This document shows positions 20,668 through 24,483 of a stretch of DNA of 64,000 nucleotides, one piece after another. Location of the stretch: NCBI GenBank assembly GCA_001771815.1, contig MEPU01000013.1, positions 310,001 to 374,000 on the forward strand. Reading direction: 5' to 3'. The stretch is from Bdellovibrionales bacterium RIFCSPHIGHO2_01_FULL_40_29 (GTDB lineage Bacteria > Bdellovibrionota > Bdellovibrionia > Bdellovibrionales > Bdellovibrionaceae). How positions within the stretch are numbered: the stretch's first letter is position 1; the number at the start of each line of letters is the position of its first letter. The notes beneath the pieces were generated by a model. That model saw only the letters and a list, made by a program, of their open reading frames with translations, was not told the DNA's origin and ran no database searches. The position numbers and the translations under genes were made by a program.

Positions 20668-22152
20668 ATGAAATTAGTGAAAACCTTAATCCTCATTATC
20701 CTTGTTTCCGGGCTTGTTGTTTTTTTCCAAAACTGCAGCCCACAGCAAAACACAGGTTTGCTGGGAACGCTTGAGTCCCCATCCACAATCGCTGATAAAG
20801 TTGTCACAGATGCCCCATTTGCATATGATTTGGTCGTTGATACAATTTCTTATAATTCTTGTGTCGGCGAGTATTTGAATGAATCTGGTTTACATGGTCT
20901 TAAAATTGGAGCGAATGAGGGTTTTGTCGACAGTCTTGGCACGGGGGCTGTCAAGGCAGGTCTTAAACTTCGGTCAGATTTTTTGGAGTACGTTGGGACA
21001 AATGTCAAGCCTAAGTATCCATCTACGGTGATTACTCCAGCCCAGATTAAAAATGTACTGGCAAACTCGAGTCTCAATAAAGATGTGCGAGTTCAATTTG
21101 CTGTTCGTAAAATTGCAGATCTTTCAGTTATTCAAGATATCATAAGTCCTGGCAGTCAGACGGTGCCGTTTAGTCTGCCACGAGATGGATTGGTTATTCA
21201 TTCGCCGTTAACGGATGATCCGGTTATAACAAATTTAACAAAAAATGTTCAGTTTGCAGCGGGTGGAACGGTGCTCTCTGAGGGGCCACGCCTTTACAAT
21301 TTACAGAGTGAATCAAGTCCCTCTCCCATCCAGGCTAGTTTTGGGTTCAGTAATATCACAGATGAGACCTTTCCGTTGGAAAATGCAGGAACAGATAACA
21401 TGGGGATCGCAGAAAGATATGCTGAAACTGTTCGGAATAAGTTCAATTTAACCAGCTCCGAAAAATATATTTTAGCGATTACGTATGGAACACTGGATGC
21501 AGTTGGTTCGGAAACTTCTGGTGTTGATGATGGTTTAAGTACACCAAAACGCGCAGATGATAGCGACACATCAAAAGCATATGGTCGATCCTTTGCCTTG
21601 CAGTTTGGACTGCCAACATCCCCAGTGGCTGCGGGTTGGAAAAATGTGGCTTTAAAAAGCGTTACAGAATCAAATCTTAGCGATGCTTCGCCGGCTTCTG
21701 GAAGTCGTTGGGATTGTCGTAGTTATCTGATTATGAAACAGACCCACTGGAACAATACAAAATTATCTGAGCCTTCATGCGCCCCGCTGATGAGCTCGGA
21801 TTTGAGTGATCCTGTTCGCGCCGCTCAAATTAAAAATTTGCGACGTCATTATTTAGAGACGGATTGGAATATTGGATTATTTTATGAAGCCGATCAGCTT
21901 TATATTCCGGCGGCTCGGGGAGACCATGCGATTTGTTTAGTTCCCAAGCCATCACGTGCCGAATGTTATTTGCCAACTCAGGACGCGGTTATTGCTGGAA
22001 CAGATGTTGGGATCAATTACAACCCAGGAACTGAATGTTATTTGTCGAATCGATTTGGTACTTCGTACTCTAACTCCATCGAGACTGTTCGTGCTGGTGG
22101 ACGCTGCGCCCAATTCGCCAGCATTTGTGTTCGCACGAGCACGAATTTCTAG
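20668..22152 (+). CDS. FQNC-type lipoprotein of unknown function
   Basis: The N-terminus MKLVKTLILIILVSGLVVF is followed by FQNCSP, so C23 is the likely lipidated residue. The 470-residue mature part is not recognised. Six or more cysteines lie in the C-terminal half (DCRS, PSCA, ICLV, ECYL, RCAQ, SICV), fitting disulphide-bonded surface exposure. The lipobox and the residues after it closely match those of the CISCH lipoprotein at 13848. It is followed after 32 bases by an outer-membrane protein candidate in the same direction. Confidence 0.7.
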   Translation: MKLVKTLILIILVSGLVVFFQNCSPQQNTGLLGTLESPSTIADKVVTDAPFAYDLVVDTISYNSCVGEYLNESGLHGLKIGANEGFVDSLGTGAVKAGLKLRSDFLEYVGTNVKPKYPSTVITPAQIKNVLANSSLNKDVRVQFAVRKIADLSVIQDIISPGSQTVPFSLPRDGLVIHSPLTDDPVITNLTKNVQFAAGGTVLSEGPRLYNLQSESSPSPIQASFGFSNITDETFPLENAGTDNMGIAERYAETVRNKFNLTSSEKYILAITYGTLDAVGSETSGVDDGLSTPKRADDSDTSKAYGRSFALQFGLPTSPVAAGWKNVALKSVTESNLSDASPASGSRWDCRSYLIMKQTHWNNTKLSEPSCAPLMSSDLSDPVRAAQIKNLRRHYLETDWNIGLFYEADQLYIPAARGDHAICLVPKPSRAECYLPTQDAVIAGTDVGINYNPGTECYLSNRFGTSYSNSIETVRAGGRCAQFASICVRTSTNF

Positions 22153-22184
22153 TTTTTACATCGAACTCTTGCTAGCCTTTGTTT

Positions 22185-23024
22185 ATGAAAAAAAACATCA
22201 CTAAACTGGTATTGATTTTTGCGTCTGCATTTTTATTATCTCAACTTTCGTTCGCAACAGCCATTGGTGGATCTGTTTCAACAGCAACAGGTGGGACAGG
22301 GCGTGGTGCTATTGAGCCTATTGATGGTGTTCTGCTGAATCCATCAAGTGTTGCTCAGATCAAGTCACAATTTTTTTCATTTACTTATTCTACAGAACAA
22401 ATGGGAATCACTATTTCCGACAATGGAAAAGAAGCTCTTTTTCCAGCGGCACTTGCGTTTGTGCGAACAGAGCGCGACAATTTGAAAACTCAAGACATGG
22501 CCTTGGTTTTGGCTTACAAGATCATGCCGCAGTTATCCTTTGGAACCACAGTATCACTTGTTGAGTATGTTCAATCCAATAATGGTTTAGAAGATAAGTA
22601 CCGACAGACAGTTGGTGATATCGGGATTTCATTTGCACCGACTAAAGAACTTTCGCTTGGAGTGGTTGCCTATAAGGTGTTCTCATCCAGCGCAGAACTG
22701 GCTGAAGTTTTACAAAAACAAAAGCAAATTGGATTAGGAGTCAGCTACACATTTGATACTTTTGTGAGGTTTCGATTTGACGTCGAATCTGCCCCTGAAA
22801 ATGAAACGGATCGATTGACGTATATGGGGGGGCTCGAGACTTATTTGAACGAATGGGTCATCGTTCGATTGGGATACCAGAATAACAACGTGGTTTCGAA
22901 AAATTTTACAACAGCAGGGCTTGGGTTCTCGGGCCCTCAATTTGGTATACATTACGGGTACTTAACTAACGTCGCGAACCGGGATGAAGACAGACATACG
23001 GTTGACTTGGGTATTCCTTTTTGA
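22185..23024 (+). CDS. predicted outer-membrane beta-barrel protein
   Basis: A signal peptide (MKKNITKLVLIFASAFLLSQ, cleavage after SFA) precedes alternating amphipathic strands. The segment GAIEPIDGVLLNPSSVAQ near residue 40 resembles the N-terminal 'AxxGxDAxxxNPAgla' hatch of FadL/OMP_transp-like proteins. The chain ends in the C-terminal phenylalanine (LGIPF) recognised by the BAM complex. At 279 residues it could form 10-12 strands. The start was placed at 22185; an in-frame ATG lies two codons earlier. No ligand can be suggested. Confidence 0.7.
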   Translation: MKKNITKLVLIFASAFLLSQLSFATAIGGSVSTATGGTGRGAIEPIDGVLLNPSSVAQIKSQFFSFTYSTEQMGITISDNGKEALFPAALAFVRTERDNLKTQDMALVLAYKIMPQLSFGTTVSLVEYVQSNNGLEDKYRQTVGDIGISFAPTKELSLGVVAYKVFSSSAELAEVLQKQKQIGLGVSYTFDTFVRFRFDVESAPENETDRLTYMGGLETYLNEWVIVRLGYQNNNVVSKNFTTAGLGFSGPQFGIHYGYLTNVANRDEDRHTVDLGIPF

Positions 23025-23083
23025 TAGATCATTGATCTTATTTAAAAGAACAATTTGGATTTTAATATCAAAGAGGTAAAAAA

Positions 23084-23215
23084 ATGGCTTCAAAGACTAA
23101 AAAAGTAAAGACAATCAGAAAACATAAAAAAGCCCGTTCTGGTGCAAAAAGAAAAGCCGCTTTGAGAACTAAAGGTTCAACTAAATCTCAAAAAGAATTG
23201 TTCGGCGACAAATAA
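23084..23215 (+). CDS. 43-residue lysine/arginine-rich small protein
   Basis: A complete frame starts at ATG 23084 with AGAGG eight bases upstream and ends at TAA 23215. The product is strongly basic: 13 Lys and 4 Arg in the first 34 residues, ending in QKELFGDK. It resembles small nucleic-acid-binding or ribosome-associated proteins in composition only; no family is assigned. A strong terminator begins 25 bases after the stop, so the unit looks like a genuine short transcript. It is too short for usual gene callers. Alternative: chance frame, made unlikely by the ribosome binding site and terminator. Confidence 0.75.
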   Translation: MASKTKKVKTIRKHKKARSGAKRKAALRTKGSTKSQKELFGDK

Positions 23216-23240
23216 TTTTTGTTATCATGAGTTTAAATTA

Positions 23241-23273
23241 AAAAAACCTGCTTTATGAGCAGGTTTTTTTTTG
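23241..23273 (+). terminator. strong intrinsic terminator
   Basis: AAAAACCTGCT and AGCAGGTTTTT pair around a TTATG loop, and the 3' arm runs into nine Ts. The A-run on the other side makes it work in both directions, serving the 43-residue gene (+) and the TonB-family gene (-), whose stop is 5 bases away. Confidence 0.85.
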
Positions 23274-23277
23274 GGAA

Positions 23278-24483
23278 CTAGTTTGAACCGAATCGGCGAA
23301 GCAAGGTTGGCATTTCTTGTACGCCACCTTTGATATCCCACTTGAATGGAATTTCAACCCATCCTTCTTGGCCAGGATAGAATTTCCATCTCTTTAGAGC
23401 AGATAAAGTTTTTCCATCCAAATTTCTAAAACCAGTGGATTTCATCATTCGAAATTGTGTTGGTTTTCCAGCTTTTGAAATGTAGGCATGAAATGCCACC
23501 ATACCTTGCTCGCGTCGAAGACGCTCCTCAACGGAATACTGAGGTTTGGGATTACCAGGAATCTGCTTCAATTGATCTAATGATCGAACAGCATTAGGAT
23601 CACCTGCGACATCAGTGTTTTTTTCATCAGGACCAGTTTCTCCACTGCCACGACCGGTAGTTGAAGTACCAGAACCTTTGGCACGGTTGCTGGCGGCCTT
23701 AGCCAGAGCAGCTTCACGAGCGGCGCGTTCAGCGGCAGCTTGTTCACTGGCTTTAATTTGAGCCAGAGCTGCGGCATTCCGAGTGCGCGTGGCATTCAAA
23801 GCATTTTCCATAGCCCGGGCTTCTGCCGAGTTTTTGTCTTCTAAGGCGCGCAGTGCTTGTTCTTGCTCATCGGCAATCAATCGGGCTTCATCATCCAGTT
23901 CAGATTTTTGTGCCGCAATAGCTGCAGCATTAGAGTGATCTACATTTTTAAATTCACTTTCAAACTCATCATCACCCAGGTTACCCACTTGAGCTGCAGT
24001 CACCCCATCGAAATCCAACTCAGGAGCAGCAATATCTTCGATTGTTTCGGGCACACCCACTCGTGATGGTGCTGTTTTGGCGACTGCTTTAGTTGTGCCA
24101 CCACCAGTAAATGTTTTTAATTTGGCAATCGCATTCTCTGTTCGAGTTGATAGTGCCACGGGACCAGAAACAACTTCAGCAATTTTAGAATCAACGGGAG
24201 CCGAGGGCATGGGGGATTTAACCGCAGTGGCGCCTTTAGTGGCCTTGACGACTTTACCCATTGGAACCACCAAGGATTTTACTAGGGGTTGCGGTTTTTT
24301 TATTTCAGGCGCAACAATTTCAATTACAATTTCGTCTTTTTTCAAAGAGTCCAACATAGGGACGGTCACACTCAACGCACCAATTGCTAGCAAGGTATGA
24401 ACCATCATTGAGAAACCAAAGTACTTGGTATCTTGCTCTTGAGTTTGTGATTGCAATGTTAGTAAATCGTAGTTCGCAGACAT
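23278..24483 (-). CDS. TonB-family protein with long charged linker
   Basis: The 401-residue protein has a short cytoplasmic N-terminus, one membrane helix (residues 25-45, MMVHTLLAIGALSVTVPML), a long linker rich in Ala, Lys and Glu (residues 60-300, partly coiled coil, with a GSGTSTTGRGSGETG spacer) and a C-terminal TonB-like domain ending in LDGKTLSALKRWKFYPG and IPFKWD. TonB proteins pass energy from ExbB/ExbD to outer-membrane receptors; no exbBD is in the window. AGGGG lies 6 bases before the ATG, inside a possible hairpin listed separately. Confidence 0.8.
   Translation of the reverse strand: MSANYDLLTLQSQTQEQDTKYFGFSMMVHTLLAIGALSVTVPMLDSLKKDEIVIEIVAPEIKKPQPLVKSLVVPMGKVVKATKGATAVKSPMPSAPVDSKIAEVVSGPVALSTRTENAIAKLKTFTGGGTTKAVAKTAPSRVGVPETIEDIAAPELDFDGVTAAQVGNLGDDEFESEFKNVDHSNAAAIAAQKSELDDEARLIADEQEQALRALEDKNSAEARAMENALNATRTRNAAALAQIKASEQAAAERAAREAALAKAASNRAKGSGTSTTGRGSGETGPDEKNTDVAGDPNAVRSLDQLKQIPGNPKPQYSVEERLRREQGMVAFHAYISKAGKPTQFRMMKSTGFRNLDGKTLSALKRWKFYPGQEGWVEIPFKWDIKGGVQEMPTLLRRFGSN

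Follow-up and report, generated by a model that had tools for sequence, protein, structure and literature searches.

A small, strongly basic protein conserved across Bdellovibrionota as a candidate lineage-specific ribosomal protein

The stretch of Bdellovibrionales DNA analysed here (64,000 nt, referred to as the window) holds at 23084..23215 a real protein-coding gene under purifying selection. Its product, a basic protein of 43 residues (MASKTKKVKTIRKHKKARSGAKRKAALRTKGSTKSQKELFGDK), found no convincing counterpart in the family libraries searched and, as judged from its sequence, lies outside the known families tested. We consider the chance slightly better than even (about 0.55) that this product is a core, lineage-specific ribosomal protein of the Bdellovibrionota, highly expressed from a single-copy gene and presumably binding rRNA. 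This phylum includes the best-studied bacterial predators, and a phylum-wide protein without library match represents a gap in the parts list of the translation or chromatin machinery. If ribosomal, the protein would be a density to seek in a Bdellovibrio ribosome structure, could serve as a marker gene of the phylum and would join bS22 and bL38 of Borrelia as ribosomal proteins hidden from annotation.

A protein-coding gene under purifying selection

The gene and its surroundings comprise the following features:
22179..23024, + strand: upstream outer-membrane-protein gene, weak FadL/TodX-family match (18.3 bits; curated cut-off 29.7)
23071..23076, + strand: ribosome-binding site AAGAGG, 7 nt upstream of the ATG
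23084..23215, + strand: small basic protein gene, 43 aa, ATG to TAA frame, stop codon included
23240..23270, + strand: intrinsic-terminator hairpin, 14-bp stem and 3-nt loop, followed by T's to about 23273
23278..24483, - strand: convergent gene with a TonB C-terminal domain, facing the small gene

The original prediction had described a complete small gene for a strongly basic protein, preceded by a ribosome-binding site, and both parts are confirmed. The protein contains 13 K, 4 R, 1 D and 1 E (K+R 40%), resulting in a calculated pI of 11.7 and a net charge of +15. The length of the ORF is by itself no evidence, since 36 ATG ORFs in the window fall within 40-46 aa; two of these show SD matches of 5 nt or more, and 23084..23215 is alone among them in having at least 35% K+R. 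Its status as a gene rests instead on the conservation of the frame across genomes. The gene is present once in its own genome, and a search of 59 genomes of the genus, family and order (own genome included) found it in 56, with an intact copy in 55. The sole frame-broken copy (L047, G011:C379) comes from an assembly of 490 contigs that is 79% complete, and the break is possibly a sequencing error. No credible match was obtained in G003, G005 and G053, which are 90%, 64% and 93% complete. An alignment of the 55 intact copies (A1) has the consensus MASKTKxTExIRxRKxxxxGxKRKAxxRxKGTTKSxKxLFGD, in which M1, R12, K24, G31, L39 and F40 are invariant. Differences at codon positions 1, 2 and 3 amounted to 454, 352 and 881 (55 pairs among 11 genomes of the genus), and for the 53 of these pairs with finite dS the median dN/dS was 0.20 and the highest value 0.42. 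Frame conservation and coding bias had been named in advance as the features on which the original prediction would stand or fall; both were clearly found, the frame in most of the phylum. Upstream of the homologous genes, SD matches of 4 nt or more occur at 141 of 152 loci, whereas the shifted control position gave them at 38 of 152 (L047, L143, L157 and L159 were omitted from these SD counts and from the hairpin counts below). A chance ORF, or an RNA element instead of a protein gene, has in its favour that short ORFs are common in the window; the frame that is intact in 55 of 56 copies, the frequent SD match, the excess of third-position differences, the low dN/dS and a search of Rfam that gave no match at the locus reduce it to a negligible probability.

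The strong terminator that had been predicted after the stop codon is likewise present. The hairpin starts 24 nt past the stop, and the 65-nt stretch 3' of the stop folds with -20.1 kcal/mol (z -4.5), a value equalled by none of 200 shuffles. A terminator consensus scan did not list the hairpin, probably because pairing swallows its T run. It had been called the gene's own; while the hairpin itself is real, it sits between two convergent genes and therefore probably serves both the small gene and the convergent gene ending at 23278. By a strict criterion a downstream hairpin was detected at 12 of 65 LFxD-type loci (those with the C-terminal form of the window protein) versus 1 of 64 control positions, and at 12 of 87 other loci versus 0 of 86 control positions. 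On the other side, the small gene begins 59 nt downstream of the same-strand outer-membrane-protein gene and the consensus scan scored no sigma-70-like site between the two, so that co-transcription with this upstream gene may occur.

Distribution, conservation and codon usage in the phylum

A search with the A1 profile matched 205 of 240 phylum genomes (167 of the 188 of good quality), nearly always once per genome; G254 was the single genome with two matches. In a second draw, which partly overlaps the first so that the counts are not additive, 120 of 143 genomes were matched. Records holding the loci include Bdellovibrionales, Bacteriovoracaceae, Halobacteriovorax, Oligoflexia and Bdellovibrionota. 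Two further records (L094 and L096) are titled Lysobacteraceae and Nitrosovibrio and carry copies 90-92% identical to the query; both fall in the second Bdellovibrionota draw, and their titles look wrong. As far as tested, the protein is confined to Bdellovibrionota: sampling outside the phylum used the pattern [NT]KGTTPKF in genome contigs (141 stretches; the best 80 of 127 relatives) together with searches of plasmids and phages, and the LFGD form was scanned within the phylum. A plasmid or phage origin of the gene was discarded, as the plasmid and phage collections gave no match at E <= 1.

Altogether 192 loci were taken, 189 of which gave a gene and 156 of which were distinct; L125 starts inside the gene, and L171 and L172 are noise. 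The distinct copies mostly code for 40-46 aa (135 of 156) and fall into two main C-terminal forms, 65 being LFGD-type like the window protein and 87 ending in GTTPKFxIH or close variants; the remaining four, one of them the frame-broken copy, end otherwise. In a diverse alignment of 41 members four positions (M1, R12, K24 and G31) never vary, and five more (S3, T5, G20, R23 and T33) are nearly constant. Eight homologues (L144, L147, L152, L153, L155, L156, L161 and L165), some of which belong to Bacteriovoracaceae, have Ala/Lys/Pro-rich C-terminal extensions to 70-88 aa. Two genomes of family f15 hold divergent longer relatives (L194:1414-1599, - strand, 62 aa; L195:1483-1719, + strand, 79 aa), in which the R/K-rich helix is kept and the GTT turn is followed by ARxPL.

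Thirty-five of the 240 phylum genomes gave no match, and 22 genomes, 20 of these together with G003 and G005, were retested. No credible copy was found in any of the nine genomes tested of family f12 (G060, G068, G075, G082, G088, G094, G098, G102 and G106), which are 91-98% complete. This points either to lineage loss or to strong divergence; as far as these genomes show, the small protein is not indispensable in the phylum. Weak matches inspected as possible divergent f12 copies (L196, L201, L237 and L239) and two in other genomes (L241 and L243) showed no member-like ORF among frames of 20-180 aa with at least 20% K+R; the match at L196 is a startless frame whose overlap with the end of a gene read as uS9 is out of phase.

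The rate of conservation was compared with that of ribosomal protein bS20. Across 25 genomes from the genus, family and order, the small protein has a median identity of 60% to the window copy, as compared to 52% for bS20 (r = 0.89; S20 was obtained in 25 of 28 genomes and missed by the motif in G047, G042 and G023). The small protein is thus conserved about as faithfully as bS20 in the genomes compared. Codon usage also resembles that of bS20. Compared with the genes around them, LFxD-type copies avoid AGG (0 versus 25.9 expected) and CGG (1 versus 31.5 expected) and favour TTC, GAC, CGT, GCT, ACT and TCT. The codon z-scores correlate with those of bS20 genes at 0.76 for LFxD-type and 0.62 for other copies, compared to 0.26 for neighbour-gene stretches. 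Among 449 window segments the window copy reaches the 99.8th percentile in bS20-like codon usage (p = 0.0008 versus random synonymous codon choice), and the small gene outranks every local segment at 44 of 64 LFxD-type and 25 of 76 other loci, the latter set including the frame-broken L047. The 16 copies with a coding length above 50 aa, and loci whose background was too small, do not enter these analyses. The correlation used 15 of 30 S20 loci and the segment ranking all 30, among which by eye at least one wrong frame and one truncated gene occur; this should only dilute the signal. The original prediction of an abundant protein is thereby supported indirectly, through codons close to those of S20; any abundant protein would show such codons, and a ribosomal class is not singled out by them.

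Candidate roles of the protein

An AlphaFold2 model (pLDDT 88, pTM 0.49) shows a helix from residue 4 to 30 and a short helix from 36 to 40. Foldseek returned a single, meaningless match (E = 9) for this model. The window protein and sets of 12 to 55 members were searched against Pfam, NCBIfam and PDB sequences, the latter without a match at E <= 10. In Pfam nine families were each hit by a single one of the 55 members, most strongly DUF6254 (E = 0.00064) and Wbp11 (E = 0.006), and two of the 12 members matched Cyclin_N2 (E = 0.047). In NCBIfam five families were matched by the 55 members (best E 0.063; PRK12864 with two members) and five, with one member each, by 41 members (best E 0.073). 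Because no family was matched by more than two members, we take these scattered hits for chance and do not assign the protein to a known Pfam or NCBIfam family; DUF6254 stays a lead. One sequence of E. coli Sra was compared and showed no similarity. Among the literature matches listed, represented by partial texts, there was no description of the small protein, nor did those matches include a Bdellovibrio ribosome structure or ribosome proteome.

The original prediction had left open whether the protein binds RNA or DNA or is ribosome-associated. Charge, predicted helix and S20-like conservation agree with this range of functions, within which the binding partner is a matter of inference. We favour a ribosomal protein because the protein is phylum-wide and single-copy, is under purifying selection, resembles bS20 in conservation and codons and is predicted to form a helix, and because conservation falls on glycines, threonines and single arginines and not on bulk lysine. 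The features expected of this class, namely single-copy occurrence, lineage-wide distribution, ribosomal-protein-like conservation and high-expression codons, were all found, with the nine f12 genomes as the exception. We assume that the basic helix (residues 4-30) would lie in an rRNA groove with its conserved R/K side chains on the backbone, while the glycines would let it bend or pack. The G-(S/T)-T-(K/P) turn and the lineage-variable tip (LFGD-type or FxIH) could dock on a protein or rRNA neighbour. In this way the protein would stabilise a ribosomal subunit, as bS22 and bTHX do elsewhere. Against a ribosomal protein stand the lack of similarity, in sequence or fold, to a solved ribosomal protein and the missing copies in the nine f12 genomes searched.

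Replacement of bS20 by the small protein was ruled out, since a separate bS20 gene is present in its own genome and in 37 of 39 genomes searched; Ribosomal_S20p (PF01649) was matched neither by the small protein nor by the members scanned against Pfam. The models for bS22 (COX24_C) and bTHX reached their cut-offs in none of 20 relatives, with one (bS22) and nine (bTHX) sub-threshold matches, which is weak evidence of absence because these short, insensitive models each pass the cut-off in no more than one of the 14 control genomes. COX24_C (PF08213) in Pfam gave no match to the window protein at E <= 10 or to sets of 55 and 12 members at E <= 1, and ribo_THX (TIGR04560) in NCBIfam none to the window protein at E <= 10 or to sets of 55 and 41 members at E <= 1.

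Tiny, basic and lineage-specific ribosomal proteins of the kind proposed here are exemplified by bTHX, a small 30S protein sitting in a pocket. bS22 (COX24_C/AURKAIP1-like; Mycobacterium, Flavobacterium, Borrelia) resembles the small protein in being tiny, helical and strongly basic. According to part of PMC10618245, it is also patchy between lineages, tends to be missed by annotation and is difficult to detect by mass spectrometry, having been the sole ribosomal protein missed by that method in Borrelia, and it binds a 16S pocket of h2, h27, h44 and h45. Its K+R content in Borrelia is 61% (PMC10618245, in part) compared to 40% for the small protein, and the sequence signatures differ as well, a G-T-T turn and a C-terminal tip being conserved in the small protein. 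bL38 of Flavobacterium and Borrelia is another lineage-specific ribosomal protein; it consists of beta strands and a short helix, whereas the small protein is modelled as helices only. Both bS22 and bL38 had been unannotated in Borrelia (same source, in part), a precedent that speaks for the ribosomal assignment. Small proteins are under-represented in a quantitative Bdellovibrio proteome according to the accessible part of PMC12546842, so that proteomic silence is weak evidence. A more specific proposal, for which our confidence is low, is that the protein is an undescribed, near-universal one-helix ribosomal protein that fills the rRNA pocket vacated by bS22 or bTHX, carries a C-terminal plug switched between lineages (GTTKSxKxLFGD in the Bdellovibrio lineage and GTTPKFxIH across a large part of the phylum) and was overlooked as tiny and destroyed by trypsin.

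The chief rival to a ribosomal protein is a small protein of the nucleoid. In this reading an abundant, lysine-rich helix would neutralise and condense DNA alongside HU, IHF and the Bdellovibrio histone. The pI and net charge would suit this function, as would codon usage typical of an abundant protein and the long Ala/Lys/Pro-rich tails of some Bacteriovoracaceae members. H1-type proteins carry tails like these extensions. Moreover, a Bdellovibrio review expects further compaction proteins yet to be identified (PMC11318664, in the section seen). We nevertheless regard a nucleoid protein as rather unlikely, for conservation is positional (R12, G20, K24, G31, T33) and goes beyond mere composition. 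A milder objection is that the B. bacteriovorus nucleoid proteome, in the portion of PMC10627809 consulted, singles out no predicted DNA-binding proteins of notable abundance other than Bd0055 and Bd1238, an argument weakened by the ease with which a K/R-rich 43-mer is lost in tryptic digests. Bd0055 (bacterial histone HBb) of Bdellovibrio shares with the small protein its small size, its phylum and, going by codon usage, its abundance, and nucleic-acid binding is proposed for both; for Bd0055 a histone fold and DNA binding have been shown (PMC10627809, same portion), compared to one long and one short predicted helix in the small protein. A histone fold is absent from the AlphaFold2 model, and no histone profile matched.

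A ribosome-associated factor which is not structural, for instance one of assembly, hibernation or stress that binds rRNA only in certain states, would agree equally well with the charge, helix, codon usage and S20-like conservation, and the dispensability in family f12 would also fit. There is no pointer to regulated expression, and high-expression codons suggest a constant demand; we therefore rate such a factor as unlikelier still than a nucleoid protein.

Gene neighbourhood

Neighbour families were named from one representative each. At LFxD-type loci a relative of the outer-membrane-protein gene lies directly upstream on the same strand in 61 of 65 cases (median gap 36 nt), and a convergent relative of the TonB-domain gene is found within the next two called genes in 51 of 65. 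The 91 other loci differ: a T2SSE-family ATPase gene is located on the opposite strand at most two genes upstream in 75 and a secretin gene is present in 40, while the gene directly following is metK in 38 and surE in three. A function could not be derived from these neighbours, which offer no clear translational link. That they include no translation gene except, loosely, metK in part of the phylum counts against a ribosomal protein. The neighbourhoods are strongly conserved within each lineage, as would be expected for a small protein acting with the outer-membrane protein, the TonB-domain protein, the T2SSE-type ATPase or the secretin of the envelope. However, the protein is retained even where a different lineage surrounds it with other genes, and this speaks against a role bound to any single neighbour. 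The 43-aa sequence has no hydrophobic or signal segment and several neighbours are divergent or convergent in orientation, so that we consider an envelope role very improbable. Two genes upstream of the small gene, 33 LFxD-type loci carry relatives (cluster 5) of a 494-aa protein encoded at 20668-22152 of the window, which has a lipoprotein-like start and no Pfam match.
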